From Pollutibacter soli (GTDB lineage Bacteria; Bacteroidota; Bacteroidia; Chitinophagales; Chitinophagaceae): 64,000 nucleotides of DNA. The stretch covers positions 744,001 through 808,000 of the forward strand of contig JARJHS010000002.1 of the NCBI GenBank assembly GCA_029269725.1, written 5' to 3'. A program made the translations under genes and the position numbers. This document shows positions 2,411 through 60,540 of this stretch, in pieces (within the stretch, counting starts at the first letter, position 1; each line of letters begins with the position of its first letter). The notes under the pieces were generated by a model. That model searched no databases. It was not told the DNA's origin and worked only from the letters and a program-made list of their open reading frames with translations.

Positions 2411-3355
2411 ATGTCCGAATCCACTGATATCATAAGTCAGGCATTGAATCAACCCGTGATGGTGGATGAATTTGTGCTTCTTTCAAAGAAGGAAAAACAG
2501 ATTCCAGGCACCTGGCAATACCAGATTCGCAGATATCAGAAATTATCACACTGGGTGGTAGAAGACACGGGTGAGCTTACTTATAATTACAATACGGGGT
2601 CGCAAAACGGGCGATATCTCGAACTTCGTTTTTGCATTGCCGGCATGAGCTGGTGTTACGAAAATGATGCATCATGTGAAGCCTGCCGGAAGGGAACCGA
2701 TAAACGCTGTGAAATGCGATTACCCGTGCTCGATGTGGTGAGTTTCCGATTCGAGCCGGAACACCTGGCCCACCTGGTAAAAGGCCAGAGAAAAAAAACA
2801 CCGACGCTTGAATTGCTGAATTTCAGAAATACACAGTCTTTTACGAGATCTATTCCAATTGGAAATAAGATCAGGCAGACCCTGGAGACCTTTCTGGGTC
2901 ATAATTATACTGATACTTTCGAAAATATTTATGTCAATGCGCAAACGCAGATCCTGCTCTTGTATGCATTGGAGGGAATACTTGATGATGAACCTCAGGA
3001 AGAAGAAGTACCCGCCTGTAAATTCCTGGCCAATCATCACGACAGGGATAAGATCATGCTGGCAAGAGAAATTCTTCTCGAGCATATCGGTGATCCGATT
3101 ACCATTAAAGAACTCAGTCGGAAGGTAGGTATTAATGAATGTTACCTGAAGAAAGGATTTAAGGTAATGTTTGGCTCAACCATTTTTGACTTTTACCAGG
3201 ATCAGCGCATGGAACATGCCCGTTTTCTGTTGTATGAAAAAGGCAAAAATGTATCTGAAGTATCTGCTCTCCTGGGATATTCCTCCATCTCCCACTTCTC
3301 CACGGCTTTTAAAAAACATACAGGGTTGAAGCCTTGTGAACTTCTGATACGTTAA
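2411..3355 (+). CDS. AraC-family transcriptional regulator
   Basis: A 314-aa cytoplasmic DNA-binding protein. The C-terminal region, about residues 220-314, is a typical AraC double helix-turn-helix. It has the pattern ITIKELSRKVGINECYLKKG for the first helix-turn-helix and VSEVSALLGYSSISHFSTAF for the second, with the usual KKHTGLKP ending. The N-terminal 200 residues do not match a sensor domain I can name. They include a cysteine cluster, SCEACRKGTDKRC near residues 93-105, which could bind a metal or sense redox state. The gene is divergent from gyrB, and its start lies 3 bp after a palindrome overlapping the promoter. The stop codon lies within the first unit of a heptad repeat array (3351-3388). 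The inducer and targets cannot be read from sequence. Confidence 0.9.
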   Translation: MSESTDIISQALNQPVMVDEFVLLSKKEKQIPGTWQYQIRRYQKLSHWVVEDTGELTYNYNTGSQNGRYLELRFCIAGMSWCYENDASCEACRKGTDKRCEMRLPVLDVVSFRFEPEHLAHLVKGQRKKTPTLELLNFRNTQSFTRSIPIGNKIRQTLETFLGHNYTDTFENIYVNAQTQILLLYALEGILDDEPQEEEVPACKFLANHHDRDKIMLAREILLEHIGDPITIKELSRKVGINECYLKKGFKVMFGSTIFDFYQDQRMEHARFLLYEKGKNVSEVSALLGYSSISHFSTAFKKHTGLKPCELLIR

Positions 3356-3388
3356 AGGTAAAAGGTTGAATGTATAACGTTGAACGCC
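3351..3388 (+). repeat. Heptad tandem array 1, overlapping the araC-type stop codon
   Basis: Units read in a 7-bp phase: gttaaag, gtaaaag, gttgaat, gtataac, gttgaac, then gcc. The stop codon of the AraC-type gene lies in the first unit. Read in reverse complement the motif matches array 2 (3522-3556): GTATAACGTTGAACG here against GTATAACGTAAAACG there. The two look like an inverted pair around a core of about 130 bp. Confidence 0.7.
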
Positions 3389-3521
3389 AGCCTAAAACAA
3401 GATAATTTTCCTGCTTTTTTGGGCATTGGGGTGGACGAAGATCCCGATCACAAAGTATTTGCCTGGCTCACATCAAGTTAAATCTTCCGGATTTGTAGAA
3501 TTCAATCATCTGCAGGGTCCA

Positions 3522-3556
3522 ACGTTGTACGTTTTACGTTATACGTTTAACGTAGT
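3522..3556 (+). repeat. Heptad tandem array 2 (ACGTTNN units)
   Basis: Five exact-phase 7-mers: acgttgt, acgtttt, acgttat, acgttta, acgtagt. Every unit begins ACGT. It is the inverted partner of array 1. It is followed by a small hairpin (GGAGCT...AGCTCC, 3572-3587) and a shorter 7-bp series (ccatccc-taatccc-taaaccc, about 3587-3614). Confidence 0.7.
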
Positions 3557-4361
3557 ACCTAAATGTGAAGAGGAGCTATAAAGCTCCCCTCCATCCCTAA
3601 TCCCTAAACCCTGGAAATAGTTCAATATGTTATACCTTCCGGACAGGTTTGAAAACTGTCTTCAGAGCCATTATTAATTCGTTGTTCGTGCTTTGTAGAT
3701 CGAAATTCTATAGATGCTGGATCCTGTGTCTCACCATAAAAATCCTGTTCAGATTTTCCTGGCGACTGATTTGTGCCAGTTCCTTCTTGCCAAAAACCTG
3801 CTTCGTTGATTGAGATTTTCCGAAAAATGCCGCGCCGGGAATGGCTGCTATCAGCTTGGAAATAAATGAAACGGTTGAATTTCTCATAATTGGAAGTATT
3901 GGATTGTTCTCAAATGGTTACAGGATTTCAGTTTTATTTTTCACAAACTATGCCAAACCGTCGTTTCTGTGGATAACTCCTAATCATATTTCATCACGTC
4001 GGAATATCAGCAATAACGGCTCCGGGTAAGGGTTAGTATAAAAATTTTGTTAATCGGTATGGCTAAATTACTACTTCAGATTTTGGGTCATAATGTCAGT
4101 AGCAATAATGAATTGTCAATTAAATTTTTACATATGCTATTGCTCAATATTGACAGTCTAAAATTGTGAAATAGTATATTTTTCCGGTTCTGGTTATTTC
4201 CCTTAAAAATATCATCTGGCATTTTTCAGGTCGACTGCAGATTTTCTGTTGTGTTTTTGTGAGGATTTTTCCGGCGATTTGATTTTATCTGCCTTTCAGG
4301 AACGACTTCGATTACTCCCGGCCGTGGCCACTGTAAAACAGTTTTGCCTTCTGAATTTGCG
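3557..4361. other. Long intergenic region before ileS, largely without genes
   Basis: Between the AraC-type gene and ileS there is about 1 kb without a convincing gene. After the repeat arrays it holds a short minus-strand ORF (3708-3887, listed separately with low confidence). The rest is AT-rich DNA from about 4030 to 4320 in which I see no ORF, tRNA or clear RNA structure. A 62-codon plus-strand ORF at 3841 looks random. Confidence 0.5.
3708..3887 (-). CDS. Possible small basic protein, 59 aa
   Basis: An ATG-initiated minus-strand ORF of 59 codons lies in the otherwise empty region before ileS. The N terminus is mildly hydrophobic (FISKLIAAIPGAAFFGKS) and the C-terminal half is basic and hydrophilic (KKELAQISRQENLNRI). 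I recognise no family and see no ribosome binding site or clear -7 box upstream. Bacteroidota do not rely on Shine-Dalgarno, so that absence is not decisive. It may be a small gene or chance. Confidence 0.3.
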   Translation of the reverse strand: MRNSTVSFISKLIAAIPGAAFFGKSQSTKQVFGKKELAQISRQENLNRIFMVRHRIQHL

Positions 4362-4369
4362 TAACTTCG
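4362..4369 (+). promoter_or_regulatory. Probable -7 box for ileS
   Basis: TAACTTCG is one base from the TAnnTTTG consensus and lies 19 bp before the ileS ATG. A TTTG at 4343-4346 is a possible -33 element, but the spacing of 15 nt is short. No T-box-like leader fits in the remaining short leader. Confidence 0.4.
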
Positions 4370-4387
4370 CCCACTTTATTAAAAATT

Positions 4388-7300
4388 ATGCAGGCCAGAT
4401 ATCATGAGTTTCAGCAACTGAATCTCCCTGAACTAGAAAAGGAGATCCTGCAAAGCTGGGAAAAGGACAAAGCATTCGAAAAAAGTGTGACCAACAGGGA
4501 AGGAGCTAAGCCGTTTATTTTTTATGAAGGGCCCCCAAGTGCCAATGGACTGCCCGGCATCCACCATGTTATCAGCCGTACGCTGAAAGACCTGGTTTGC
4601 CGGTATAAATCGATGAAAGGTTTCCAGGTGCAACGCAAAGGTGGCTGGGATACCCATGGATTGCCCATCGAGCTCGGAGTTGAAAAGGAATTGGGCATTA
4701 CCAAAGAAGATATCGGAAAGAAAATTTCTGTTGAAGAGTATAATCAAAAATGCCGCGAGGCTGTATTAAGGTATAAAGATCTCTGGGATGACCTCACCCG
4801 CAAAATGGGTTATTGGGTCGATCTTGATAATCCCTATATCACTTTTGAAAACAGTTATATAGAAACACTCTGGTGGTGTCTGAAAGAATTATATAAAAAA
4901 GGATACCTGTACGAAAGTGTGAGTATTCAGCCTTATTCACCTGCTGCAGGCACAGGTTTAAGCTCGCATGAATTAAACCAGCCTGGTACTTATAAAGATG
5001 TAAAAGACACCAGCGCCACCGTTTTGTTCCACGTTCCATTGAGTGCAGGAGAAAGGGGGTCAGAAGCGAATGCATCACATTCATCTTTAAAAAAACTGAC
5101 GGATGCTGTAGCTCCAGGTGCAGATTCGGAGCCGACGGGTAAATTATATATCATGGCCTGGACGACCACGCCATGGACGCTTCCCTCCAACCTGGGTCTC
5201 GCGGTCGGTCCCAATGTGGAATATTCACTTGTAAAAACGTTCAATCCGTATACAGGTCTGCCTTCTTCAGTGATAATTGCGACAGCGCTAATACCGAAGT
5301 ATTTTAAAGAAGAAGGTAAAGACATTTCTTTTGCTGATCATAAGGAAGGTGATAAGTTTTTACCCTGGAAGGTGATCACTACATTCAAAGGAGCTGAGTT
5401 AGATGGATTAAAATACAACCAGCTTTTACCTTTCGAAGCAAACTCGCTTGATCGTGTACGCGAAATAACACCTGAAGCAGATCCATTTAAAGTCATTTTG
5501 GGTGATTTTGTTACTACAGAAGATGGAACAGGCATCGTACATATGGCCCCTGCTTTCGGCGCTGATGACTTTAAAGCCGGTAAAAAGAATAATCTCGGAA
5601 TACTGACACTCGTAGATCGTGAAGGAAAATTTGTTCCCGGTGTGGGCGAATTCAGTGGCCGCTTTGTAAAAAATTATAAAAGCGAAGCTGACTATGTTGA
5701 TGTGAATGTCGATATCTGTGTTTTGCTGAAAAAAGAAAGCAAGGCATTTAAGATTGAAAAATATGAGCACGCGTATCCGCATTGCTGGCGTACAGACAAA
5801 CCAATCCTATACTATCCTCTCGATGCTTGGTTCATACGTACGACTGCTTTGAAGGACAGGATGGTTGAACTCAACAAAACCATCAACTGGAAGCCTAAAT
5901 CTACCGGAGAAGGACGTTTCGGAAACTGGCTCGAAAACATGGTCGACTGGAACCTCAGTCGCAGTCGTTTCTGGGGTACACCGTTACCGATCTGGAGAAC
6001 GGAGGATGGTGAAGAAGAAAAATGCATCGGATCTATTGAAGAACTGAACAGTGAAATAAAAAAAGCAAGTACTGCATTGCGTGGTGAAACCAATAAACAT
6101 TACCTGCATGAAGGTTTGCTTGATCTGCATAAACCTTATGTTGACGATATCATTCTGGTGAGCGAGTCGGGGAAACCGATGAAGCGTGTTCCGGACCTGA
6201 TCGATGTCTGGTTTGACAGCGGTGCAATGCCCTATGCGCAATGGCATTTCCCATTTGAGAACAGGGATATGGTTGATCCTGAAAAAGGAGAAGCGCGCGC
6301 ATTTCCGGCCGATTTCATCGCTGAAGGTGTTGACCAGACCCGCGGCTGGTTTTACACTTTGCATGTACTCGGCGTAATGCTTTTTGATAGCGTTGCTTAC
6401 AAGTCCGTTGTCTCCAATGGTCTTGTGCTCGATAAAGACGGCAACAAAATGAGTAAGCGCCTGGGTAATGTTGTTGATCCGTTTAAAACCATTGGTCAGT
6501 TTGGCGCAGATGCTACACGTTGGTACCTCGTAACGAATGCATCACCATGGGAGAACATGAAGTTTGATGTTGAAGGTATCCGTGAGGTACAGCGTAAATT
6601 TTTCGGAACACTTTATAATACCTATCAATTCTTCGCACTGTATGCAAACGTGGACGGGTTTGCATTTAAAGAAGCATATATTCCCGTAAAAGACCGCCCT
6701 GAAATAGATCGTTGGATATTATCGAGTCTGAATTCTCTGATCAGGAAAGTAACTCTACACCTTAATGATTATGAGCCGACACTGGCAGGAAGAGCCATCG
6801 AATATTTTACAGATGAATTGCTGAGCAACTGGTATGTGAGACTTTGCAGAAGAAGATTCTGGAAAGGTGAATATGAAAAAGACAAGATTGCAGCATATCA
6901 AACGCTTTATGAGTGTCTTGAAACTTTGATGCGATTGATGGCTCCGGTTTCTCCATTCTTCTCCGATTATATCTATCGTATTCTAGATAAAGTCACGGGA
7001 AGGCTGGGTGTTGCGTCAGTACATTATACTGATTTCCCGGTTGAAAATCCTGAAGTAATTGATCTTGCTCTCGAAGAAAGAATGCAGATGGCGCAGGATA
7101 TATCTTCGCTTATACTTTCCATTAGAAAAAAAGTGAATATACGTGTACGTCAGCCTCTGCAGAAGGCGCTTGTACCGGTGAATGGAAAAGATATGGAAGA
7201 GCAGATAAGAAAAGTTGAAGATCTTATCAAAGCTGAAGTGAATGTTAAGGATTTGGAATATCTTTCAGGCAGTAATGATTTTATACACAAAAAGGTAAAA

Positions 7301-7810
7301 CCCAATTTTGTTGCTCTTGGCAAGAAGATGGGCTCGAAGATGAAAGCGGTTGCTGCTGCGATTGGCGGGTTTACCCAGGATGATATAAAAAAACTTGAAC
7401 TTACTGGTGAGATCGAACTGATGATTGAGGGTACGCCTATTATCATCAGGGTAGATGAAGTAGATATCCAAAGCGAGGATGTTCCGGGATGGATGGTCGC
7501 TTCAAAAAATGCATTGACAGTGGCACTGGATATTCAGGTGAGTCCGGAATTAGAGAAGGAAGGGAATGCGAGGGAGCTGGTCAACAGGATACAGAAAATC
7601 CGGAAGGACCAGGGTTACGAGCTCACTGACCGGATAGATGTGAAGCTGGCAGGGAACGAAAAACTGATTCCGGCCATTACACAATTTAATAATTATATTT
7701 GCGCCGAAATTTTAGCAGATACACTGGAATTGGTGCCTGAAATTGCAGATGGAACTGCGATTGAAGTCAATGACATTCAGCTCAAAGTGTTAGTTTCAAA
7801 AAAAGGGTAA
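4388..7810 (+). CDS. ileS: Isoleucyl-tRNA synthetase
   Basis: Charges tRNA-Ile in the cytosol. The 1140-aa product is a class I synthetase. The HIGH-type signature GPPSANGLPGIHH lies near residues 48-60 and the KMSKS signature appears as KMSKR near residue 687. Between them is the editing (CP1) domain with TTPWTLPSN, typical of IleS. The catalytic-domain motif FIAEGVDQTRGWFYT precedes KMSKR. A long C-terminal anticodon-binding region follows. At about 1140 aa, with this motif style, it resembles the longer IleS type common in Bacteroidota and eukaryotes rather than the roughly 940-aa E. coli type; such enzymes are often less sensitive to mupirocin (family knowledge, not shown here). The DksA-like gene follows after only 6 bp, suggesting an operon. 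Confidence 0.97.
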   Translation: MQARYHEFQQLNLPELEKEILQSWEKDKAFEKSVTNREGAKPFIFYEGPPSANGLPGIHHVISRTLKDLVCRYKSMKGFQVQRKGGWDTHGLPIELGVEKELGITKEDIGKKISVEEYNQKCREAVLRYKDLWDDLTRKMGYWVDLDNPYITFENSYIETLWWCLKELYKKGYLYESVSIQPYSPAAGTGLSSHELNQPGTYKDVKDTSATVLFHVPLSAGERGSEANASHSSLKKLTDAVAPGADSEPTGKLYIMAWTTTPWTLPSNLGLAVGPNVEYSLVKTFNPYTGLPSSVIIATALIPKYFKEEGKDISFADHKEGDKFLPWKVITTFKGAELDGLKYNQLLPFEANSLDRVREITPEADPFKVILGDFVTTEDGTGIVHMAPAFGADDFKAGKKNNLGILTLVDREGKFVPGVGEFSGRFVKNYKSEADYVDVNVDICVLLKKESKAFKIEKYEHAYPHCWRTDKPILYYPLDAWFIRTTALKDRMVELNKTINWKPKSTGEGRFGNWLENMVDWNLSRSRFWGTPLPIWRTEDGEEEKCIGSIEELNSEIKKASTALRGETNKHYLHEGLLDLHKPYVDDIILVSESGKPMKRVPDLIDVWFDSGAMPYAQWHFPFENRDMVDPEKGEARAFPADFIAEGVDQTRGWFYTLHVLGVMLFDSVAYKSVVSNGLVLDKDGNKMSKRLGNVVDPFKTIGQFGADATRWYLVTNASPWENMKFDVEGIREVQRKFFGTLYNTYQFFALYANVDGFAFKEAYIPVKDRPEIDRWILSSLNSLIRKVTLHLNDYEPTLAGRAIEYFTDELLSNWYVRLCRRRFWKGEYEKDKIAAYQTLYECLETLMRLMAPVSPFFSDYIYRILDKVTGRLGVASVHYTDFPVENPEVIDLALEERMQMAQDISSLILSIRKKVNIRVRQPLQKALVPVNGKDMEEQIRKVEDLIKAEVNVKDLEYLSGSNDFIHKKVKPNFVALGKKMGSKMKAVAAAIGGFTQDDIKKLELTGEIELMIEGTPIIIRVDEVDIQSEDVPGWMVASKNALTVALDIQVSPELEKEGNARELVNRIQKIRKDQGYELTDRIDVKLAGNEKLIPAITQFNNYICAEILADTLELVPEIADGTAIEVNDIQLKVLVSKKG

Positions 7811-7816
7811 TCATTT

Positions 7817-8731
7817 ATGGCAACAAAGAAAAAGGCTGCACCTAAAGCGGCAAAACCAGCCAAAAAAGCGGCAAAACCAGCACCCAAAAAAGCGCCGGTT
7901 CAGAAAAAGGCTGCACCAAAAGCGGCAAAACCAGCAGCGAAACCTGCTCCCAAGCCCCCTGCTAAAAAATCAGTTGCAAAGCCTGCTGCCAAACCTGTTG
8001 CCAAAGCGCCGGTAAAACATGCACCTGCGCACAAAGACGAAAAACATCATGCGAAACCGTTAGCACATCATAAGGATGAAAAAGCTGCGGTAAAACATGC
8101 TGCTCCGGTTAAAAAAGCGCCAGAGCCTGTAAAGTCTCAGCCGAAAAAACCTGAGCCGCATGTTGAAGAATCCAAACCTGTCAATAAACTCGCAGAGATC
8201 AGGAAGGTCATAAAAACCCAGGAAGTAAAAAAGCCTGCTAAGCCAGTGGTTATGCCTAAGATCAATGCAACAACATCACGTAAATACGAACCCGAATTTA
8301 CCAGATCGGTTTTAGACCAGCCGACGGTTGAAAATACTGGACCAACTATGAGATACAGCGATGCAGAACTTGCGGAATTCAGAGAGTTAATCGCCCGAAA
8401 ACTTGATGCAGCAAAAAAGGAACTTTCTTACCTGCACGGTCTGATCACCCGCAAGGATGAGATGAGCGGCGACGAAACTGACAACCGTTATATGACTATG
8501 GAAGACGGAAGTCTGAGCATGGAGCGTGAGCAGTTGAGCCAGATGGCCAGCAGGCAAATCGACTTTATAGATAAACTCGAAAAAGCCCTTATCCGGATTG
8601 AAAATAAAACATATGGCATTTGCCGTGTTACCGGAAAACTCATTGACAAAGCACGTCTCAGAGCAGTACCACATGCTACACTGAGTATCGAGGCTAAGAT
8701 GGGAATGTCGAGGAACCCGAATATTCAGTAA
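7817..8731 (+). CDS. DksA/TraR-family protein with a long Lys/Ala/Pro-rich N-terminal tail
   Basis: 304 aa in two parts. Residues 1 to about 120 are extremely rich in Lys, Ala and Pro, built from repeats of PKAAKPAKKA type, and resemble a histone H1-like or AlgP-like tail able to bind nucleic acid. A less biased linker follows, and residues about 180-304 are a DksA/TraR-like coiled-coil plus C-terminal finger. In the finger (YGICRVTGKLIDKARLRAVP, then HATLS) three of the four zinc cysteines are missing, so a zinc-free fold is likely; this degenerate form is common in Bacteroidota as I recall. DksA proteins act on RNA polymerase, and the tail could tether this one to DNA or RNA. It is coupled to ileS (6-bp gap). 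The lspA gene I would expect next in many Bacteroidota is absent, and a heptad array begins 1 bp after the stop. Confidence 0.85.
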   Translation: MATKKKAAPKAAKPAKKAAKPAPKKAPVQKKAAPKAAKPAAKPAPKPPAKKSVAKPAAKPVAKAPVKHAPAHKDEKHHAKPLAHHKDEKAAVKHAAPVKKAPEPVKSQPKKPEPHVEESKPVNKLAEIRKVIKTQEVKKPAKPVVMPKINATTSRKYEPEFTRSVLDQPTVENTGPTMRYSDAELAEFRELIARKLDAAKKELSYLHGLITRKDEMSGDETDNRYMTMEDGSLSMEREQLSQMASRQIDFIDKLEKALIRIENKTYGICRVTGKLIDKARLRAVPHATLSIEAKMGMSRNPNIQ

Positions 8732-8732
8732 G

Positions 8733-8767
8733 GTTTAACGTAGTACGTAAAACGTTAAACGTCGGCC
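8733..8767 (+). repeat. Heptad tandem array 3
   Basis: Units in exact 7-bp phase: gtttaac, gtagtac, gtaaaac, gttaaac, gtcggcc. It starts one base after the DksA-like stop. The reverse complement of array 4 (8948-8982) matches it over ACGTNAAACGTTAAACGT, so the two form an inverted pair around a core of about 180 bp. Confidence 0.75.
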
Positions 8768-8947
8768 TATGCGGATTTGATCTTTCCAGTATCTCTGGTA
8801 GAGGAGATAAGTCTGTTTGGTAAAAGAATATTAAAGGGAATTTGGAATCCTTCGTTTTAGAGGATCCAAACGGTGTATTGATGTTTGTCCCTTTTTGCAA
8901 CAATTAAATTCTTTTATTTAGTCGGAATCGTTCCAAATCAGGTTCTG

Positions 8948-8982
8948 ACGTTCCACGTTCTACGTTTAACGTTTCACGTCAC
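8948..8982 (-). repeat. Heptad tandem array 4, overlapping the ABC transporter stop codon
   Basis: Units: acgttcc, acgttct, acgttta, acgtttc, acgtcac. The last unit contains the stop codon (TGA, complement of 8979-8981) of the ABC exporter gene. It is the inverted partner of array 3. The core between the two holds no ORF and no clear terminator. Confidence 0.75.
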
Positions 8983-10796
8983 TTCACCTCCTGCATCTGC
9001 ACCAAACGTGTATAAAATCCATTCATAGCAATCAACTCTTCATGCTTTCCCCTTTCGACGATTTCTCCTTTTTGTAAAACAATGATTTCATCGGCGTGCC
9101 TTACTGTTGAAAGACGATGAGCAATAACGATGCTGGTTCTGTCTTTCATCAAATGATTGATAGCATCCTGAACAAGTTTTTCACTTTCGGTATCCAATGA
9201 AGATGTTGCTTCGTCAAGAATCAGAATGGGTGGGTTTTTTAAAACGGCACGGGCGATGGTAAGGCGTTGCTTCTCACCACCGCTGAGTCTGCCTCCGCGG
9301 TCACCGACATTGAATTGGTAGCCACCTTCTTTCTGTGTTATAAAATGATGCGCATTGGCCACTTTTGCTGCCTGTTCAATTTCTTCAGGTGTTGCTTTTT
9401 CGTTTCCCAGTGCGATATTCGAAGCAATACTTTCGTTGAATAAGATGGGCTCCTGAGTTACGATCCCCATCAGGTTACGGAGATCCTTAACCGCATATTT
9501 CCTGATGTCATTTCCATCGAGTAAAACCGCTCCTCCACTTACATCGTGAAACCGTGGTACAAGATCCGCAAGTGTTGACTTACCACTTCCGGAAGATCCC
9601 ACCAGTGCGAGTGTTTTTCCTTTTTTGACCGTAAGATTAATATTCTTCAACACCGGTGTATCGCCATAACTGAAGTTTACATTTACCATCTCGATACAAT
9701 TTTCAAACCTCCTGATTTCAATCGGATGTTCAGGATCCCTGATGGTTTCTTTTTGAGTGATGAGCTCTTCGATGCGTTCCACGCTGGCAGCACCCTTCCG
9801 GATATTGTAAGATGCTGTAGTTAAAGACTTCAGTGGATTAATGATCTGTGTGAATATCGCGATGTAGGCAAGAAAATCAGGACCGTTCAGAAAATTTTCA
9901 TTCAGTACCAGGCGCCCGCCATAAAACAGAACGCAACAAACAGCGAGTAATCCTAATGTTTCGGACACCGGTGAAGCAAGATCTCTTCTCCTGTTTGCCT
10001 GGTTTTTTATGGTAAAGAGTTCATGATTTTCTCTCTTGAATTTTCTCAATTGCTGACCTTCCGCATTAAAGGCTTTTACAACGCGGATACCTCCCAGCGT
10101 CTCTTCAATGGTACTTAATATATCACCTAATTTTTCCTGCACTCTTCCTGAAACACGTTTTAATGAACGACCAATTCTGCCTATAATCAGACCTGAGACA
10201 GGAAGAAATATCAGGAGAAAAAGGGAAAGCTGAGGACTGAGACTGACCATTGCAGTGAGGTACAAAATGATGATTACCGGCTCACGGAAAAATGATTCCA
10301 GGAAGCTGATCGTGGAATATTCAACATCCTGCAAATCGTTGGTGAGCTTACTCATGATGTCACCTTTACGTTGCTCATTGAAAAAGCCTACTGGCAGCTG
10401 AAGTATCTTGTTATACATATCATCCCGCATATCATTTATGATGCGGTTGCGGATCGGCGTTAGTACATACATTGACAGATACAGAAACAGATTTTTCAAC
10501 AGGATAGCCGCCAGTACAATAAGGCAGAGAAATCCAAGGGCTTTTATTTTGCCTGTGTCGGTGGATGTTAGTCTTGTAAGTAAAGCATAAAAATCATCGG
10601 TAATTGTTCCCAGCCTGAATTTCGATGTCATGATCTTATTATCCTGCTGAACTCCGAATATAAGCGCCAGGAACGGCGCAAGCAAGGTTAGCGAAATCAG
10701 AGAAAAAAAAGCTGATAACAGGTTGAGTGTGAAATAGAGACCTACCAGCTTTGGATATTTGCTGACATAACGGAAAATTGTACGCAGGCTTTTCAT
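8979..10796 (-). CDS. ABC exporter, ATP-binding and membrane domains fused (MsbA-like)
   Basis: 605 aa, a half-transporter that should act as a homodimer in the inner membrane. The N-terminal 330 residues form the six-helix exporter domain (YVLTPIRNRIINDMRDD is the typical coupling-helix region). The ATPase domain has Walker A GSSGSGKST near residue 399, signature LSGGEKQR near residue 504, Walker B ILILDEATSSLD near residue 520 and the H-loop in IVIAHRLST. Length and layout match MsbA and related lipid or drug exporters. Lipid A export is plausible but not provable from sequence. It is divergent from rbfA. The stop codon lies inside heptad array 4. Confidence 0.93.
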   Translation of the reverse strand: MKSLRTIFRYVSKYPKLVGLYFTLNLLSAFFSLISLTLLAPFLALIFGVQQDNKIMTSKFRLGTITDDFYALLTRLTSTDTGKIKALGFLCLIVLAAILLKNLFLYLSMYVLTPIRNRIINDMRDDMYNKILQLPVGFFNEQRKGDIMSKLTNDLQDVEYSTISFLESFFREPVIIILYLTAMVSLSPQLSLFLLIFLPVSGLIIGRIGRSLKRVSGRVQEKLGDILSTIEETLGGIRVVKAFNAEGQQLRKFKRENHELFTIKNQANRRRDLASPVSETLGLLAVCCVLFYGGRLVLNENFLNGPDFLAYIAIFTQIINPLKSLTTASYNIRKGAASVERIEELITQKETIRDPEHPIEIRRFENCIEMVNVNFSYGDTPVLKNINLTVKKGKTLALVGSSGSGKSTLADLVPRFHDVSGGAVLLDGNDIRKYAVKDLRNLMGIVTQEPILFNESIASNIALGNEKATPEEIEQAAKVANAHHFITQKEGGYQFNVGDRGGRLSGGEKQRLTIARAVLKNPPILILDEATSSLDTESEKLVQDAINHLMKDRTSIVIAHRLSTVRHADEIIVLQKGEIVERGKHEELIAMNGFYTRLVQMQEVK

Positions 10797-11235: not shown

Positions 11236-12453
11236 ATGTATTTCAGTTTCGCCTGGCGTTATTTCAAAGCAAAAAAATCTACCAATGCTATAAATATCAT
11301 AGCCTGGGTTAGTGTCATTGCAATTATTGTCGGTACTGCTTCATTAATTATCATTCTAAGTGCATTTAATGGTTTTGAGAGCCTGGTGAAATCACTTTAT
11401 TCTTCATTTTATCCTGATATCAGGATCAGTGCTGTAAAAGGGAAAACCATTCAACTTAATGCGGAACAAAGACAAAAGCTCGCCCATTGGCCTGGTGTAA
11501 GAGCCGCAAGTCTCACTGCGGAAGAAAATGCGCTGCTCACTAACGGCGATATACATACGATTATACAGATTAAAGGTGTAGACTCCGGTTACACAAACTT
11601 GTCTGGCATACCGGAGAAAATGGTACGGGGAACATTCGCACTCGGAAATGAAGAGGCTCCAAAACTTGTTTTAGGTGTGGGGATTGAAAATGCCATTGGC
11701 ATTGTTTCCGATAGAACGATCACTCCTCTTACCGTTTATCTCCCGAAGAAAGATGCGGGTTCAGGCGACCCGATGGCCTCATTGAGCCAGGGCCAGGTGT
11801 CGCCTGCAGGAAGTTTTGCCATTCAATCTGAATTCGACAACAAATACGTAATCACCAATCTTGATTTTTTAAAGACATACCTGAATTACAAACCAGATGA
11901 GTTTACCTCGATGGAACTTTCATTAAGTGATATCAGGAAAGAAAATCAGGTTGTTTCGGAGATCAGTTCATATCTGGGCAAAAACTTTCTTGTACAGAAC
12001 AGGTATGAGCAGAATAGAAATTTGTATTCAACCATCACTCTTGAAAAGTGGGCGATCTATGCCATTTTCTCCCTCATACTTTTAGTCGCTGCATTCAATA
12101 TGATCGGGGCACTTAGTATGCTTGTGCTCGAAAAGAAGAAAGATATCCAGGTATTGCAGGCGATGGGCGCAGAGCGAAGCCTGATCAGGAAAATATTTCT
12201 CAGCGAAGGATTATTACTCGCAATGATCGGTGCGGGCGGAGGTTTGATCATCGCATTTCTTTTATATTATCTGCAAACAAATTACAAACTCGTGCCGTTG
12301 CAGGGTCAATCCTTTCTGATCGATTATTATCCCGTAAAACTTGTTTTCACCGATATCCTCCTTGTGGTGATCACTGTATTTGTGATCGGTTTGCTGGCTT
12401 CATGGGTACCTGCAGCGAGGGCAGCCAGGCAGCCGTTTGAGCTGAGAAATTAG
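11236..12453 (+). CDS. FtsX-like ABC permease of the LolC/LolE type
   Basis: 405-aa inner membrane protein with the MacB/FtsX layout. There is one membrane helix at about residues 22-45 (IIAWVSVIAIIVGTASLIII), a long periplasmic domain to about residue 270, and three C-terminal helices ending with the GLLASWVPAARAAR signature. The segment VLEKKKDIQVLQAMGA is the cytoplasmic loop typical of LolC/E and FtsX permeases. It would work with a separate LolD-like ATPase, not present here, to release lipoproteins to the outer-membrane pathway; a related export role cannot be excluded. It sits 8 bp after rbfA. The stop codon TAG is the first three bases of heptad array 5. Confidence 0.85.
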   Translation: MYFSFAWRYFKAKKSTNAINIIAWVSVIAIIVGTASLIIILSAFNGFESLVKSLYSSFYPDIRISAVKGKTIQLNAEQRQKLAHWPGVRAASLTAEENALLTNGDIHTIIQIKGVDSGYTNLSGIPEKMVRGTFALGNEEAPKLVLGVGIENAIGIVSDRTITPLTVYLPKKDAGSGDPMASLSQGQVSPAGSFAIQSEFDNKYVITNLDFLKTYLNYKPDEFTSMELSLSDIRKENQVVSEISSYLGKNFLVQNRYEQNRNLYSTITLEKWAIYAIFSLILLVAAFNMIGALSMLVLEKKKDIQVLQAMGAERSLIRKIFLSEGLLLAMIGAGGGLIIAFLLYYLQTNYKLVPLQGQSFLIDYYPVKLVFTDILLVVITVFVIGLLASWVPAARAARQPFELRN

Positions 12454-12506
12454 TGAGTAGTGAGTAGGGAGCAGCCAGTGTAAAGTTGAAAGTGTAAAGT
12501 TGAAGA
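12451..12506 (+). repeat. Heptad tandem array 5, starting at the LolC/E-like stop codon
   Basis: Units in 7-bp phase: tagtgag, tagtgag, tagggag, cagccag, tgtaaag, ttgaaag, tgtaaag, ttgaaga. The unit sequence drifts while the period stays 7. It is paired with array 6 (12625-12652) across an intergenic core that carries the terminator at 12563-12586. Confidence 0.75.
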
Positions 12507-12562
12507 GGAGATTGAAAGGAATGATTTGACAAATCAATCACCAATCATAGATCACGTAAATG

Positions 12563-12586
12563 AAAAACCTGGCTCAAAAAGCCAGG
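12563..12586 (-). terminator. Intrinsic terminator for the transketolase N-half gene
   Basis: Stem CCTGGCT / AGCCAGG with a 5-nt loop (12568-12586). On the minus strand it is followed by TTTTT (complement of 12563-12567). The orientation fits the minus-strand gene ending at 12655. Confidence 0.7.
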
Positions 12587-12624
12587 CCTTATAATAAAGC
12601 GTCCAGGTTTTTATTTGAATCTGG

Positions 12625-12652
12625 TTACTTCTTACTTCTCACTTCTTACCTG
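12625..12652 (-). repeat. Heptad tandem array 6
   Basis: Units: ttacttc, ttacttc, tcacttc, ttacctg. It ends 2 bp before the stop codon of the transketolase gene (12655-12657). It is pyrimidine-rich on the plus strand, where array 5 is purine-rich, so the pair is inverted. Confidence 0.7.
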
Positions 12653-12654
12653 AT

Positions 12655-13488
12655 CTAATAGTCGCCGAGTGTTTCCTTCAACTGGCTTAAAGCTGATTTC
12701 AGTTGTTCATCATTAGGTGCAACACCATGCCAGTTGTGATTATTTTCCATGAAATCAACACCTTTACCCATCACTGTGTGCATCATGATTCCAACTGGTT
12801 TTCCTTTTCCTGAGAGAGATTTTGCTTCATCAAGCGATGCCAGCAATTTATCCATATCATTTCCGTCAGTTTCGATCGTCTTCCAACCAAATGCTTCAAA
12901 TTTCGCGCGGATATTTCCGAGCGACATTACTTCTTTTGTAGTACCATCAATCTGCTGACCGTTCCAATCCACCGTTGAAATGAGGTTGTCAACTTTATGG
13001 TGAGCTGCAAACATGGCCGCTTCCCAGTTCTGACCCTCATCCAGTTCTCCATCTCCGTGAAGAGAGTACACCAGGCGATCGTCATTATTGAGTTTTTTTG
13101 CGAGTGCGGCTCCGATGGCCACGCTCATACCCTGGCCGAGTGAACCTGATGCCACTCGAATGCCTGGGAGGTGTTCGTGGGTTGTAGGGTGACCCTGAAG
13201 CCTCGAATTTATTTTTCTGAAAGTTGCCAGTTCTGAAATATTAAAATAACCCGCTCTCGCAAGGGCAGAATAAAAAACCGGGGAAATATGCCCGTTGGAC
13301 AGAAAAAACAAATCCTCCCCGGCTCCATCCATCTGAAACTCGGGATTGTGTTTCATCACTTTAAAGTAAAGCGCTGTAAAAAAGTCAGCACAACCTAAAG
13401 AACCGCCGGGATGTCCGCTCTGACATCCGTGAACCATTCTTACGATATCTCTTCTGATTTGCGATGCTATCTCAGTTAATTCTGCCAT
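12655..13488 (-). CDS. Transketolase, N-terminal (thiamine diphosphate-binding) subunit
   Basis: 277 aa, matching only the N-terminal half of transketolase. It has the cofactor motif GDGELDEGQNWEA near residues 145-157, the SLGQGMSVAIGAALAKK segment before it, and conserved GHPGGSLGCADFFTALYF near the N terminus. In organisms with split transketolase this half pairs with a separate C-terminal subunit (pyrimidine-binding domain plus C domain) to transfer ketol groups in the pentose phosphate pathway. That partner is normally adjacent but is not here: the flanking genes are convergent (LolC/E-like) and divergent (WecA-like). Either the partner is elsewhere in the genome or this half has another partner. 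A terminator and heptad array 6 lie downstream, and TAGTTTTG at 13508-13515 is a good -7 box. Confidence 0.9.
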   Translation of the reverse strand: MAELTEIASQIRRDIVRMVHGCQSGHPGGSLGCADFFTALYFKVMKHNPEFQMDGAGEDLFFLSNGHISPVFYSALARAGYFNISELATFRKINSRLQGHPTTHEHLPGIRVASGSLGQGMSVAIGAALAKKLNNDDRLVYSLHGDGELDEGQNWEAAMFAAHHKVDNLISTVDWNGQQIDGTTKEVMSLGNIRAKFEAFGWKTIETDGNDMDKLLASLDEAKSLSGKGKPVGIMMHTVMGKGVDFMENNHNWHGVAPNDEQLKSALSQLKETLGDY

Positions 13489-15517: not shown

Positions 15518-15522
15518 GGAAT

Positions 15523-15585
15523 GTAAGTAGAGAGTAGTAAGAAGTAAGAAAGAGTTTAGAGTTTAAAGTTTTAAGTGGTAAGTTG
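15523..15585 (+). repeat. Heptad tandem array 7
   Basis: Nine units in unbroken 7-bp phase: gtaagta, gagagta, gtaagaa, gtaagaa, agagttt, agagttt, aaagttt, taagtgg, taagttg. The unit changes gradually along the array. It leads directly into the 110-bp direct repeat at 15581-15780. Confidence 0.75.
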
Positions 15586-15780
15586 TACGTTAGCCTCAGC
15601 ATGAGCTAAATTTCTCTAACTCCGCGACAAGAGGTAACGTTCATGTTCCGGCAGGAACATCCTGTTTGTAGCCACCCGTAGGGCGGATGAAGTTATACGT
15701 TAGCCTCAGCATGAGCTAAATTTCTCTAACTCCGCGACAAGAGGTAAAGTTCATGTTCCGGCAGGAACATCCTGTTTGTA
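15581..15780 (+). repeat. Two near-identical 90-bp direct repeats, period 110 bp
   Basis: Copy 1 is 15581-15670 and copy 2 is 15691-15780, with 88 of 90 positions identical by my count (differences at G/A in position 5 and C/A in the ACGT/AAGT segment). They are separated by a 20-bp spacer (gccacccgtagggcggatga). Each copy contains the inverted repeat TGTTCC-GGCA-GGAACA followed by TCCTGTTTGTA, and an imperfect palindrome at CCTCAGCATGAGC. No long ORF spans both copies. It looks like a REP-type intergenic element in tandem. This fills the 325-bp gap between frr and the EamA gene. Confidence 0.85.
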
Positions 15781-15814
15781 TACGCGTGCAGGGTTGCAAA
15801 TAAAAAAATATGAA

Positions 15815-15844
15815 AAAGAACCTGGCAATTTGCCGGGTTCTTTT
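15815..15844. terminator. Bidirectional intrinsic terminator between frr and the EamA gene
   Basis: Long stem AAAAGAACC-t-GGCA / TGCC-g-GGTTCTTTT with a 3-nt loop. A-tract on the left and T-tract on the right allow termination of both frr (plus) and the EamA transporter (minus), whose stop codon at 15843-15845 overlaps the stem. Confidence 0.8.
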
Positions 15845-19167: not shown

Positions 19168-19229
19168 ACTAAGAGTCCGAAAATGCTGGAATACATTGTT
19201 CAGCCAGGCTGGGAGTCCGGCTGTTTACA

Positions 19230-47035: not shown

Positions 47036-47211
47036 TCGATTTCGGTTACCGTTGTTGCAAAAATGCAAAAAGTTTTTCGATTTGAGTTACGTAAAACAAC
47101 GATTTCAGGTTCTTTAATCATGTGTTGATCTAATCCTGAATATATTCTTTTTTTTCTATAAACACCTATCACTCAGACTGGTTCAATTATTTAATCAAAC
47201 AAAACAGTCAG

Positions 47212-51675: not shown

Positions 51676-51703
51676 GGCAGGAGGCAGGAGTGGGGAGGCA
51701 GGA
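51676..51703 (+). repeat. Heptad tandem array 16 (GGCAGGA units)
   Basis: Units: ggcagga, ggcagga, gtgggga, ggcagga. It follows directly after the nrdJ terminator. A weak pyrimidine-rich 7-bp series near 51807-51860 may be its inverted partner, but is too degenerate to be sure. Confidence 0.65.
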
Positions 51704-52117
51704 GGGCTAATGTTCAGCAGATCGTACCCGGCTTTATTCCGGAAAAAGTCCTGGTAATGAAATTTGGTGTTGAATGATAATCGGGAAAAAGACTAGGAAA
51801 TGCTTGTTCCTCTTATCCCGGACCTAGTTCTCTTACCTCGTACTGCCACCTAAATTACTATTCCGTACTTTCTCGAATAATCACATCCACTGATCCTGAT
51901 ACTGTTAGAAAATTGTTCCCTTAATTGTAGAGAATTGGCATCATTTTTTCTTAGCTACGTGTGCGCCTGGAGAAAAACATTTTGATTTCTTTTAGGAAGA
52001 GAAATCTTAGTGCTGACCAAATTAAAAACCGATTTGTTCGTTTCAGTCCTGGCTCGTTTTTTAATCCCGAAACCTAAAATTTTTAGATGACAGAAATCTA
52101 CGCGAAAACAAACCTTT
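51704..52117. other. Intergenic region between nrdJ and the small lipoprotein
   Basis: About 410 bp. Apart from the possible degenerate heptad series near 51807-51860 I see no gene, hairpin or RNA. A 61-codon minus-strand ORF (51955-52140) looks random. Confidence 0.4.
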
Positions 52118-52487: not shown

Positions 52488-52970
52488 ATGGAATTGAAGG
52501 TCAGCTACAAAAAACCCGCAGTTATTCAGGCATTGAGATACCATTTCATCAGCAAGCCTGAAATCAAAACAATGGTCGTATTGGTAAATGTGTTCGCCCT
52601 GCTGACGGTAGGTCTATATGCATTTAAGATGATTACGCCATTGCCGTTCCTGATGAGTTCAGTGCTTTGGCTGGCGATGATGCTTGCATTCTGGGTATGG
52701 TTACCAGCTTTGATTTATCGACGCAGCAAAACTTTCAAGGATTCTTTTACAGTCACGATTGAAGAGAACCATATGTTTATTGATACTGATCGGGGACGTA
52801 AAACCTTCGCCTGGCGCGAGTTCAGTAATTTTTTCGAAACCCCGGGTTTCTTCCATCTCTATTTTGATCCGCGGAGTTTCTTTCTTCTACCCAAAGACGC
52901 CTTCGCTGATTCCGATCAAGTCCATCGCGCAAGGCAGATCATGAAAGCAGGAATTAAACGTAAAACGTAA
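52488..52970 (+). CDS. YcxB-like membrane protein
   Basis: 160 aa. Two membrane helices near residues 27-45 (TMVVLVNVFALLTVGLYAF) and 52-75 (LPFLMSSVLWLAMMLAFWVW), followed by a soluble domain of the YcxB type: FTVTIEENHMFIDTDRGRKT, then FAWREFSNFFETPGFFHLYF, FFLLPKDAFADSDQVHRARQ. The family is membrane-associated with unknown function. The last four residues (KRKT) and the stop codon are encoded by heptad array 17, so the original C terminus may have been altered. Confidence 0.8.
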   Translation: MELKVSYKKPAVIQALRYHFISKPEIKTMVVLVNVFALLTVGLYAFKMITPLPFLMSSVLWLAMMLAFWVWLPALIYRRSKTFKDSFTVTIEENHMFIDTDRGRKTFAWREFSNFFETPGFFHLYFDPRSFFLLPKDAFADSDQVHRARQIMKAGIKRKT

Positions 52971-52990
52971 AACGTAGAACGTAGAACGTA
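52956..52990 (+). repeat. Heptad tandem array 17, spanning the YcxB-like stop codon
   Basis: Units: aaacgta, aaacgta, aaacgta, gaacgta, gaacgta. The stop codon at 52968-52970 is inside. Reverse complement of array 18 aligns at about 21 of 25 positions, so the pair is inverted around a 73-bp core. Confidence 0.85.
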
Positions 52991-53063
52991 AGCTCTTCCT
53001 GGGCAATGCTGATGGTTAAGGACGATGGCAAACCGATGATCTGGTAAATTCGCGGGTTCCGGC

Positions 53064-53098
53064 GTTTAACGTTTGACGTTTAACGTTGAACGTAAAAA
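53064..53098 (-). repeat. Heptad tandem array 18
   Basis: Units: gtttaac, gtttgac, gtttaac, gttgaac, gtaaaaa. It ends 5 bp before the stop codon of the convergent GNAT gene. Inverted partner of array 17. Confidence 0.85.
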
Positions 53099-53103
53099 CG
53101 TCT

Positions 53104-57412: not shown

Positions 57413-57523
57413 AGAAACAGGGAAGAGAATACAGAATACAGGAGGAAACAGAAAACAGAAACAGAAAACTGAAAACAGAATACTGGGAAAGACACAGAAA
57501 TGAAAACTGAAAGTAGAAAACCA
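57413..57523 (+). repeat. Heptad tandem array 19a (purine-rich)
   Basis: About 15 consecutive 7-mers: agaaaca, gggaaga, gaataca, gaataca, ggaggaa, acagaaa, acagaaa, cagaaaa, ctgaaaa, cagaata, ctgggaa, agacaca, gaaatga, aaactga, aagtaga. The longest array in the window. Units drift but the phase is kept. Confidence 0.7.
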
Positions 57524-57541
57524 GATCTTCAAACTTGTCGA

Positions 57542-57611
57542 ACAACTGACAACTGACAACTAACAACTAACAACTAACAACTCCTACTGACTACTTACCT
57601 CTTACTACTCA
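57542..57611 (-). repeat. Heptad tandem array 19b (ACAACTN units), overlapping the mce stop codon
   Basis: acaactg, acaactg, acaacta, acaacta, acaacta, acaactc, ctactga, ctactta, cctctta, ctactca. The stop codon of the convergent epimerase gene (57609-57611) is at its end. Opposite strand bias to array 19a, so the pair is inverted. Confidence 0.85.
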
Positions 57612-59365: not shown

Positions 59366-59405
59366 CCTTTACCTTAATCAGTCGAAGGGTTTAAATATTT
59401 GAGCT

Positions 59406-59756
59406 ATGAATTTTACAGACAGTGGAATGGGCATCTTTATCAGCGACAAAGCCAAAGAGAAAGTGGATGTGTTGTTGAATGAAGAAGGAAAAGGACAGGA
59501 CTATTTTGTCCGTGTGAGTGTAGTGAGTGGTGGCTGCTCCGGGCTCAGTTATAAAATGGATTTTGACAATACAACAAAACCAACCGACCAGGTATTTTCT
59601 GATAAAGGGGTAAAAATTGTAACGGACATGAAGAGTATGCTCTATCTCTTCAATACAACACTTGATTATTCCGATGGCTTAAACGGTAAGGGTTTTCATT
59701 TTGTAAATCCCAATGCATCGCGTACTTGCGCATGCGGCGAAAGCTTTTCTGTTTAG
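59406..59756 (+). CDS. A-type Fe-S cluster assembly/carrier protein (IscA/HesB family)
   Basis: 116 aa. The three cluster-binding cysteines are in VSGGCSGLSYKMDFD near residue 44 and in SRTCACGESF at the C terminus (CxC). It accepts or delivers Fe-S clusters to apo-proteins. It is next to the cysteine desulfurase. Length is typical. Confidence 0.94.
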   Translation: MNFTDSGMGIFISDKAKEKVDVLLNEEGKGQDYFVRVSVVSGGCSGLSYKMDFDNTTKPTDQVFSDKGVKIVTDMKSMLYLFNTTLDYSDGLNGKGFHFVNPNASRTCACGESFSV

Positions 59757-59779
59757 TCTTTTTCAATATATCTTTTTTA

Positions 59780-59818
59780 AAAACTCCTGATCGCTTGTTG
59801 GATCAGGAGTTTTTTATT
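59780..59818 (+). terminator. Intrinsic terminator after the IscA-type gene
   Basis: Perfect 13-bp stem AAAACTCCTGATC / GATCAGGAGTTTT, 8-nt loop, then further T residues (TTATTT). Confidence 0.88.
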
Positions 59819-59891
59819 TATCTCAATATGGATGTCCTCAAGAAGTTTTTCTACTTCCAGGAATCGGTTTGATCTTTTTTAAATCTGTGTG

Positions 59892-60122
59892 TCAGATTAC
59901 TACATCTGACTCAATCGGTGGTGGCGGCGGCGGTGGGGGCGGAGGAGGTACATGATCATTTTCAACCGGAGCCGGAGGAGGTGGTGGAGGTATTGGAGCT
60001 TGAGGCGGCGGCGGAGGTGTTATGTGAATTTTTTCAGGTGGATTTGGTGGTTTAGGTACAACCTGGCTTACAGTAATTATTGCAAGTACAACCAGGCACG
60101 ATAATATAACTGCTCTTTTCAT
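59892..60122 (-). CDS. Secreted polyproline mini-protein, 76 aa
   Basis: N-terminal signal peptide (MKRAVILSCLVVLAIITVSQ). The mature part is nearly all proline runs (PPPPPQAPIPPPPPPAP, then a run of eleven Pro) separated by short acidic or histidine-bearing spacers, ending IESDVVI. Translation would need EF-P. I know no function. The polyproline helix could span the periplasm or bridge surface proteins. No partner gene is adjacent. The bias of the GGC/GGT complement codons follows the proline content. Confidence 0.7.
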   Translation of the reverse strand: MKRAVILSCLVVLAIITVSQVVPKPPNPPEKIHITPPPPPQAPIPPPPPPAPVENDHVPPPPPPPPPPPIESDVVI

Positions 60123-60540
60123 AAAGCGTTTTTCTTTGAGATACTAACATTGTACAATTCCATAAAATAATTTAGAAACAAATCAAGTAAAGCATATTTC
60201 ACATTACGGCCTGTTGTTTGTTGCGCAATTCATGGTGAGTATTGAATTATAAAGGAATTTTGATGCTAATGTCTTTATGGATGTGATAGTCAAAGCGTAA
60301 AAACCCTTGCATCTGGTTAGCCTGCACATCAGATTTAAACTTTTAGCGCCTTTTTCCACAGTTCTACACATCACACCACTTCAACAAACTACGATGAGCG
60401 AAAAACGCCGCCAGCCCTCACTTGATCAGCAGGCCCTAACTAAAGGTTTCAGTGGGAATTGTCACATGAACAGGGGCGTGCCCAAACTATGAACTATGAA
60501 CGAATAACCATCACCTAGTTCTTTTTCTCACCTCTTAATA
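60123..60540. other. Intergenic region between the polyproline gene and the large T9SS cargo gene
   Basis: About 420 bp. It contains a short CTATGAA-type repeat (actatga, actatga at 60486-60499), the smallest heptad array in the window. A 61-codon plus-strand ORF at 60307 looks random. No RNA structure was recognised. Confidence 0.4.

Follow-up and report, generated by a model that had tools for sequence, protein, structure and literature searches.

Intergenic heptad arrays of Pollutibacter soli as probable end-arms of small insertion elements related to S23/IVP elements

What are the tandem arrays with a period of 7 nt that lie between the genes of Pollutibacter soli, and why should the period be seven? 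The question is raised by a stretch of 64,000 nt of this genome (contig JARJHS010000002.1, positions 744,001 to 808,000 of the forward strand; hereafter the window), in which a first-pass annotation listed 22 such arrays built on differing units. Heptamers are described, in the available text of PMC6344855, as the most abundant short intergenic repeats in many prokaryotes, without known function. In this study, we propose, with a probability of about 0.65, that these arrays, in inverted orientation, form the two end-arms of small insertion elements akin to S23/IVP elements, which are known from 23S rRNA genes as intervening sequences, and that most copies in the part of this genome examined are gene-less. 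What the annotation had overlooked is the anatomy of the arrays: they form inverted pairs at gene edges, their sites are empty in relatives, and they are associated with genes of the S23/IVP family.

The 7-nt period and its place at gene edges

Using Tandem Repeats Finder (TRF) together with a lag-7 scan, we recovered 20 of the 22 listed places; at the thresholds used, the array listed at 46222 was recovered in its right part (46271-46293) and not in the rest, and the one listed at 27891 was not recovered. In the gaps of the window the autocorrelation at lag 7 is 0.300, compared with 0.259-0.283 at lags 5, 6 and 8-13, and with 0.254 at lag 7 in coding DNA. Strong lag-7 arrays in 464 kb numbered 30 intergenic and 8 mostly coding, and no strong intergenic array was found there at lags 5, 6 or 8-12; 20 Markov shuffles of the gaps of these 464 kb gave a mean of 0.05 strong lag-7 arrays versus 27 in the real gaps. 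Arrays were then counted in 1.264 Mb (the window and 60 stretches of 20 kb) of the 6.1-Mb genome, where 86 strong lag-7 arrays are intergenic and 18 mostly coding; lag 14 gave 44 strong intergenic arrays and every other lag from 4 to 20 gave 0-3. The lag-7 peak that the annotation had expected is therefore present, against both other lags and shuffled gaps, over 1.264 of 6.1 Mb, and the sharing of a 7-nt period by arrays with differing units is above chance. The unit itself, which had been taken as free, is constrained, with 45 AACGTWN arrays and many others falling within a limited unit set. The arrays are mostly intergenic, as had been claimed, except that some overlap gene ends, for example that of the argG open reading frame (ORF) at 39033-40268, and the drift of units within an array in a constant phase of 7 was confirmed in the arm at 15526-15591. 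The annotation knew of no described equivalent in Bacteroidota, but earlier papers have recorded heptad arrays in some members of the Bacteroidetes and across many prokaryotes.

In P. soli, 150 arrays occupy 106 of 618 gaps. Genes were called as longest ORFs, so that edge distances in the loci of foreign genomes are biased toward zero, and the 3' edges of P. soli were checked by homology. The median distance from array to gene edge is 18 nt as against 46 nt under uniform placement, and 36% of the arrays lie within 5 nt of an edge as against 7.7%; arrays at 3' edges (96 in number) have a median distance of 7 nt and those at 5' edges (54) one of 33 nt. Moreover, the arrays have a direction. Read inward from the edge, AAGTAGT outnumbers its reverse complement 12 to 1, AGTTCAT 11 to 0 and AAAGTTG 14 to 3, and arrays within 40 nt of an edge carry more G than C inward in 70 cases and the reverse in 10 (p=3e-12); beyond 40 nt the figures are 16 and 12. 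Edges without arrays have no inward excess of G over C at 3' ends (110 versus 119) and have it likewise at 5' ends (208 versus 109), so that the polarity test is clean at 3' edges only. The polarity tracks the edge of the gap and not transcription.

The inner end of arms of classes other than AACGTWN is often a box, AACAGCC. Among 60 intergenic boxes an array lay on the outer side in 30 and on the inner side in 16, and the reversed-box control, with 16 intergenic occurrences, gave 2 and 4. When both arms of a gap could be scored (18 gaps), they were of the same class in 15 (p=0.006), and the duplex between the arms of the 18 two-armed modules of P. soli averaged -19.0 kcal/mol versus -14.0 ± 1.6 kcal/mol after shuffling (best of 300: -18.1).

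The AACGTWN arrays, defined as having at least three units, number 45 by motif alone, and 44 of them have 3-6 units. Two in-phase ACGT cores are followed by an exact third unit in 51 of 67 cases, while the likeness of the free positions is 0.534 within an array versus 0.494 ± 0.019 when shuffled (p=0.026). Since their free positions have almost no array memory, these arrays are unlike a product of serial copying or slippage; they are rows of sites that vary one by one and are either maintained or built to a motif. The arrays anchored on AGT and on AAG are homogenised (0.77 within versus 0.34 shuffled, and 0.73 versus 0.40), and therefore slippage or recombination is at work there; some arrays contain 14-nt higher-order repeats, as at L027 19784-19874. 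The annotation had read the shared period as the mark of a length-measuring mechanism, which is right in spirit, but the copying enzyme stepping 7 nt that it suggested has no support, as no match to the reverse transcriptase family RVT_1 was found in P. soli and the AACGTWN arrays keep almost no array memory; we rejected a reverse transcriptase as array maker for the former reason. Restriction-site avoidance was not seen, AACGTT not being avoided in coding DNA, and polar growth of the arrays was rejected, as only a slight asymmetry was seen.

Modules at sites empty in relatives and arms beside S23/IVP genes

Gene order is common to P. soli and its relatives. When the same gaps were compared in relatives, as the annotation had proposed, the modules were missing there and the genes stood back to back. 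The convergent genes 11236-12453 and 12655-13488 are separated in P. soli by a gene-less module of 201 nt (12454-12654), whose arms lie at -3 nt and at +5 nt: the left arm (12451-12474, plus strand, TAGTGAG class) overlaps the stop codon, and the right arm (12625-12649, minus strand, GTAAGAA class read inward) lies 5 nt from the gene. (Arms and arrays of the window were found by both TRF and the lag-7 scan unless one method is named.) This gap measures 2-13 nt, stops included, in 15 of the 16 genus genomes compared; in the other, G015 (L047), it is 1052 nt long and has no heptad arrays. A second gene-less module between convergent genes (8732-8978) has two AACGTWN arms, the left one (8729-8762, plus strand) overlapping the stop codon of 7817-8731 and the right one (8948-8979, minus strand) abutting that of 8979-10796, and in all five relatives compared these two genes are 7-44 nt apart, stops included. 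The module at 15518-15842, which separates frr from a transporter-like gene and whose left arm (15526-15591, plus strand, lag-7 scan) drifts in phase from AGTAAGA to AAGTTGT, corresponds to 3-20 nt, counting the stops, in all six relatives compared.

These cases agree with a wider comparison. P. soli and the relative G016 have 94 adjacent gene pairs in common; all eight array gaps among them measure 69-478 nt in P. soli and -7 to 41 nt, array-free, in G016, whereas the median difference between the two genomes is 24 nt for the 86 array-less gaps (p=9e-5 versus array gaps). Across the same genes in relatives of the genus, one such array was found in 236 kb. For 23 arrays the DNA examined contains a relative of the gene at the array, and in 22 of these cases protein homology stops no more than 36 nt from the array. 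In a three-protein tree P. soli falls inside the genus among compact genomes, its exact place being weakly supported (0.36, 0.81). Because it nests there, insertion is the simpler history, with loss as the less likely alternative.

One insert of the window contains a gene. Between an aminotransferase gene (36212-37360) and argC (37893-38873), where the relative G007 has 28 nt between the aligned gene ends, P. soli has an armed insert (37361-37892) consisting of a left AACGTWN arm that reads inward (37377-37405, plus strand, lag-7 scan), a gene on the minus strand (37429-37788) for a four-helix-bundle protein of 119 aa of the 23S_rRNA_IVP (S23) family (PF05635, E=3.8e-38), and an inverted right AACGTWN arm (37863-37891, minus strand), the left:right duplex amounting to -23.2 kcal/mol (L340). 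The nearest solved sequences are 2gsc (XCC0516) and 2rld, with five chains each. The genome has eight matches to PF05635 and, by protein search, six IVP loci, of which the window locus and L341 have arms on both sides. At L341 the arms (AGTTGTT/AGTTCAT), each with the box AACAGCC, overlap the ends of both neighbouring genes, and the gene-less modules carry the same units and box. The broken IVP copies L343 and L345 have arrays on both sides, the right one of L343 about 660 nt off.

The family is widespread: PF05635 was matched in 61 of 80 genomes of the phylum (P. soli among them, the others not chosen for arrays), in all but one (G418) of 38 array-bearing genomes from other groups and in 54 of the 56 genomes searched overall (misses G418 and G007), versus 0 of 14 control genomes. 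Since IVP genes are so common, their presence alone is little proof, and it is position that counts; being common in the phylum and present in array-poor relatives as well, they do not predict array number. We examined IVP loci from genomes that were not chosen for arrays, 33 of 36 being usable (26 from the phylum, 7 from the order or genus). The IVP loci set aside before the count, over all sets, were L377, L387, L393 and L374 (central ORF too long for IVP), L355 (a repeat of the window locus) and the broken copies L343 and L345. Within 350 nt of the gene there were 27 arrays (1.17/kb) versus 12 farther off (0.17/kb; p=4.4e-9), with at least one array in 18 loci and arrays on both sides in 6. 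In genomes chosen for arrays, 16 of 21 IVP loci had an array within 350 nt, and among control loci the counts were 0 of 29 for LolCE-like genes (mostly in array-poor genomes), 0 of 7 for Y1, 0 of 5 for reverse transcriptase and 1 of 3 for Ku. The array-poor genus relatives G002 and G011, with no lag-7 array of score 11 or more in 40 kb each, nevertheless have arrays at their IVP genes (L367, L352).

The arms at IVP loci have the geometry of the gene-less modules: the G-rich strand points toward the ORF in 42 and away from it in 5. At 15 two-armed loci the similarity of left and right arm is 0.824 inverted and 0.603 direct, compared with 0.620 ± 0.025 (maximum 0.704) when arms are shuffled between loci. 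In most two-armed cases the arms match and can form a stem, with a mean duplex as RNA of -34.3 kcal/mol over 17 elements versus -14.9 ± 2.1 kcal/mol shuffled, and an arm-to-arm span of 422-763 nt; the two-armed modules of P. soli pair less well than these. Arrays near IVP genes have a median of 4.6 units (65 arrays). Arms also stand beside S23/IVP genes in other phyla, the two-armed cases including, by their record titles, Chloroflexota and Verrucomicrobiota among others. A search of the open-licence literature, which leaves most subscription papers outside, found no paper joining intergenic heptads with S23/IVP genes.

Heptad arrays of the same geometry occur farther afield. G147 and G097, of another family, have other units (AGGTTGC, AGGTGTC, GTAGACG), including one gap of 112 nt in which 5 nt and 9 nt separate the arms from the two stop codons; the same geometry with units such as AGGTTGC in another genus bears out the annotation in having excluded the ordinary transposition of one element. 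In a foreign set of at least 108 stretches, drawn from many phyla with four AACGTNN units as the sole criterion, edge arrays among the matches listed were G-rich inward in 67 cases versus 30 (by locus 42 versus 17, p=0.0015), and those without ACGT, again among the matches listed, in 23 versus 12 (p=0.09). No orthologous pairs were found for the array-bearing loci of other phyla. A heptad vocabulary common to phyla was rejected, the excess of common unit classes being weak (49 versus 35.4 ± 5.6 expected, null maximum 55). The reversed control, a TGCAANN repeat, revealed further heptad-bearing genomes of the order (G147, G097, G231, G408, G103, G217, G290 and G365), and these were confirmed. 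In G147 (L308-L317) there are seven period-8 arrays in 193 kb, and arms may not always be heptads. At about 2-718 of L122, from a metagenome-assembled genome of Anaerolineae, heptad arrays adjoin three similar stretches of the form TATTTWCATAGCAG, possibly another inner box in Chloroflexota.

Proposed explanation and its rivals

It seems that the arrays are best read as arms. In the fuller form, the element consists of an arm, usually of about 3-6 heptads, an S23/IVP gene and an inverted arm; the gene-less modules (69-478 nt in the eight compared with G016) have the same kind of arm, polarity and inner box around an unrelated core. Such elements are presumably mobile, and would insert where genes stay unbroken, which in compact genomes means stop-codon junctions or sites upstream of starts. 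The S23/IVP protein may recognise the arms, with about one heptad per subunit, and a ring of five subunits could explain arms of about five heptads. The gene-less modules may have been acted on in trans by this protein, or by some other enzyme, and would have accumulated in P. soli. By analogy with rRNA intervening sequences, the stem of the arms in transcripts could let RNase III excise the insert.

Several observations weigh against this explanation. Its weakest point is that the gene-less cores are mostly unrelated to one another (71 of 94 found no counterpart in 1.264 Mb, a fifth of the genome, which is not what a normal copied element would show) and almost without gene trace, IVP traces in array gaps amounting to 2 of 104, both borderline (E 0.02 and 0.046), with 1 in the reversed control; for this reason the link between IVP elements and gene-less modules depends on the arms, box, polarity and site that they share. 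Empty sites are seen, but no target-site duplication was defined, the relatives being too diverged to fix the exact target, and no transposase was linked to the modules. Within nine AACGT pairs of gene-less modules the arms are no more alike (0.840) than between pairs (0.856). Two of the six P. soli IVP loci (L342, L344) have no scored arm, and 15 of the 33 unselected loci have no lag-7 array within 350 nt. Three of the 17 two-armed IVP elements pair poorly (L346, -16.8; L384, -10.1; L400, -8.8 kcal/mol), and both arrays of L384 run in one direction. IVP genes also occur in array-poor relatives, and G418 has arrays and no IVP match. The period is not absolute, since arrays near 58 IVP loci have other periods as well (59 of period 7, 15 of 8, 11 of 9, 4 of 6 and 4 of 10).

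An assembly or detection artefact has a negligible chance of explaining the arrays, as other lags and shuffles yield almost nothing and the geometry recurs in many independent assemblies; nothing was found in its favour. Replication slippage is the obvious neutral account: according to a hypothesis of Mrazek and colleagues, as cited by others, it favours units of 7 nt because a polymerase contacts about 7 nt of DNA, and arrays would then persist wherever coding constraint is missing. The homogenised AGT- and AAG-anchored arrays and the 14-nt higher-order repeats fit this account, as does the abundance of heptamers, the commonest class in many genomes as far as the available texts tell. It does not predict the inward polarity, the inner boxes, the arms at IVP genes or whole inserts at sites empty in relatives, nor does it suit AACGTWN arrays that lost array memory at their free positions while the core stayed, or genus relatives that have the same genes and almost no such arrays; as a complete account it fails on these points, and we consider it unlikely. 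Regulatory sites for a protein that binds RNA or DNA over a footprint of 7 nt, selected at gene edges and unconnected with mobile-element ends, would account for the conserved AACGTWN core among near-random spacers, and cold-shock proteins are reported, in the available text, to bind one per heptamer. However, a polarity set by the gap edge rather than by transcription, the many unit classes within one genome, the relatives without arrays at the same sites and the lack of AACGTT avoidance in coding DNA make regulatory sites quite improbable.

To the extension of break ends we give very little credence. Here a free 3' end would grow in 7-nt steps, telomere-like, on both sides of a break before the ends are joined, giving head-to-head arrays that are G-rich inward. 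The head-to-head polarity and the independent variation of the two AACGT arms of a pair are as such growth would have them, and P. soli, alone of nine genus genomes tested, has a Ku gene (L333, C32:518875-519405), which was found in none of the eight genus relatives and nine other genomes tested. The absence of an RVT_1 match in P. soli, together with the S23/IVP genes inside the inserts and the boxes, which it leaves unexplained, count against it; Ku was not found in the array-rich G147 and G097 and is present in 5 of 38 array-bearing genomes, so that non-homologous end joining by Ku was rejected as a general rule. Two kinds of known mobile element were rejected as well. A copied miniature inverted-repeat transposable element would have inverted ends, as the arms are (class-concordant in 15 of 18 pairs), and its copies would have related cores, as these do not. 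The REP-associated tyrosine transposases (RAYT, Y1) occur in 13 of 18 genomes, whether these have arrays or not, and have no arrays beside their genes. A REP (repetitive extragenic palindrome) element moved by RAYT would be a GTAG-tagged palindrome beside a Y1 transposase gene; the arms are heptad arrays, and none of the four Y1 loci of P. soli has an array within 350 nt.

The end-arm explanation may be extended further, although tentatively and with more doubt than confidence. The four-helix-bundle rings of S23/IVP proteins could read the heptads of bacterial mobile elements that form a very large class, so far unrecognised; five subunits facing about five heptads would fix the period at 7 whatever the unit, and paralogues would each have their own dialect; gene-less copies and decayed arms might then make up much of the intergenic heptamers of prokaryotes, and the rRNA intervening sequences would represent those few copies whose insertion happened to hit an rRNA gene. 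The abundance of these heptamers was known before and is unexplained, and S23/IVP proteins have solved structures and, in the literature available to us, no known function. If true, the link would be a first lead on why the heptamers are so common and would give heptamers and S23/IVP proteins a partner in each other; the question "why seven?" could then be put to the test using a small protein with short oligonucleotides, and the widened gaps in such genomes would be inserted elements and not slipped repeats.

Further window features and known systems

Other arms of the window follow the same plan. A module between tandem genes (19094-19277) has unlike arms, the left one (19088-19118, plus strand, TAGTGAG class) overlapping a stop codon and the right one (19229-19261, minus strand, AGTTCAT class) being followed inward by the box AACAGCC. 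A gene-less module between convergent genes (52971-53103) has two AACGTWN arms, at 52956-52991 (plus strand, entering the end of the ORF 52488-52970) and at 53063-53093 (minus strand). An AACGTWN-like left arm at 3349-3384 (plus strand, TRF) overlaps the stop codon of 2411-3355, and its likely partner, paired by eye and taken as inverted, is the AACGTWN arm at 3522-3553 (minus strand, TRF); the 1032-nt gap ahead of the isoleucyl-tRNA synthetase gene contains two arms, and this gene is followed within 4388-8731 by a DksA-like gene (below the family cut-off). Right arms were found at 57541-57582 (minus strand, AGTTGTT class read inward) and at 28113-28145 (minus strand, TAAGTTG-like, TRF), the latter in the gap 27894-28206, whose listed left partner at 27891 was not recovered. 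An arm of the GGCAATA class at 38908-38939 (plus strand, TRF) is followed by GGAACAGCC, and a GGCAGGA-class array (39059-39086, minus-strand reading, TRF) lies inside the end of the argG ORF, which enters the heptad array over 39033-39086; the four best argG models stop at residue 392-395 of 411, about where the array starts. A GACAGTA-class arm (46271-46293, minus strand) lies inside the end of the ORF 46271-47068. Arrays of the GGCAGGA class (51676-51705, plus strand) and the AAACAGA class (57443-57483, plus strand) and a short one of the AGTTCAT class read inward (60485-60501, minus strand) complete the set.

Two further repeats were observed. At 15580-15790 a 110-bp unit occurs in almost two tandem copies (97% matches), with a TGTTCCGGCAGGAACA hairpin and an imperfect palindrome preceded by GTAG; it has 20 more matches in the genome, mostly partial, and it looks REP-like. 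A second intergenic family of about 120-250 bp with 66-81% identity partly overlaps heptad modules, its members lying at about 60190-60437 of the window and at L241:343-592, L026:13395-13621, L029:15505-15716 and L255:10125-10243. The ORF 60603-62942 encodes a type IX secretion system (T9SS) sorting domain, which is typical of Bacteroidota.

As far as the available texts describe them, several known systems share part of this anatomy. REP elements and bacterial interspersed mosaic elements with RAYT (PMC3733652) are likewise short, inverted and intergenic, often downstream of genes, but they are palindromes tagged by GTAG or CGTC and have no heptad arms. The TAACTGA repeats of Beggiatoaceae, Cyanobacteria and five Bacteroidetes (PMC4679880) are sporadic intergenic heptamers, sometimes mixed with other heptamers, and differ in lying mostly just upstream of starts, in having one orientation in the main genome and in the translational role proposed for them. 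The GGGAATC repeats of Xanthomonas and GGGGA(C/T)T repeats of Nostoc (PMC4692102) come near in their period of 7, intergenic position, inward reading and nearness to ORFs, with mostly four units and with inverted pairs that converge, counted 70 and 75 times in two strains; they have one unit type per genome, and a G-quadruplex reading was proposed. Their authors generally saw no association with mobile elements, and a term search of the accessible text found no mention of S23 or intervening sequences; one solved S23/IVP structure, 2gsc, comes from Xanthomonas campestris, whose S23 protein is described as a homopentameric ring of four-helix bundles (PMC4990558).

The intervening sequence (IVS) of Coxiella burnetii rRNA, as presented in the available part of PMC4990558, is 428 nt long and has an S23 ORF, terminal inverted repeats, excision by RNase III and, just before the ORF, tandem GACAGAT heptamers whose copy number varies between strains. 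It has in common with the elements described here a small size, in their fuller form an S23/IVP ORF (present at 37429-37788, with borderline traces in 2 of 104 array gaps), stem-forming terminal inverted repeats (found in the IVP elements, except that three of 17 pair poorly, and in the P. soli modules), heptamers, a sporadic distribution and the lack of a known function. In contrast to IVS, the present elements are numerous per genome, mostly ORF-less and made of many heptad units. Moreover, IVS sit in 23S or 16S rRNA genes, whereas the modules of the window lie between protein genes, and the window has no Rfam match at gathering scores. The elements thus resemble IVS, yet we class them as a variant outside IVS proper, because their sites are not the rRNA genes by which IVS are defined.

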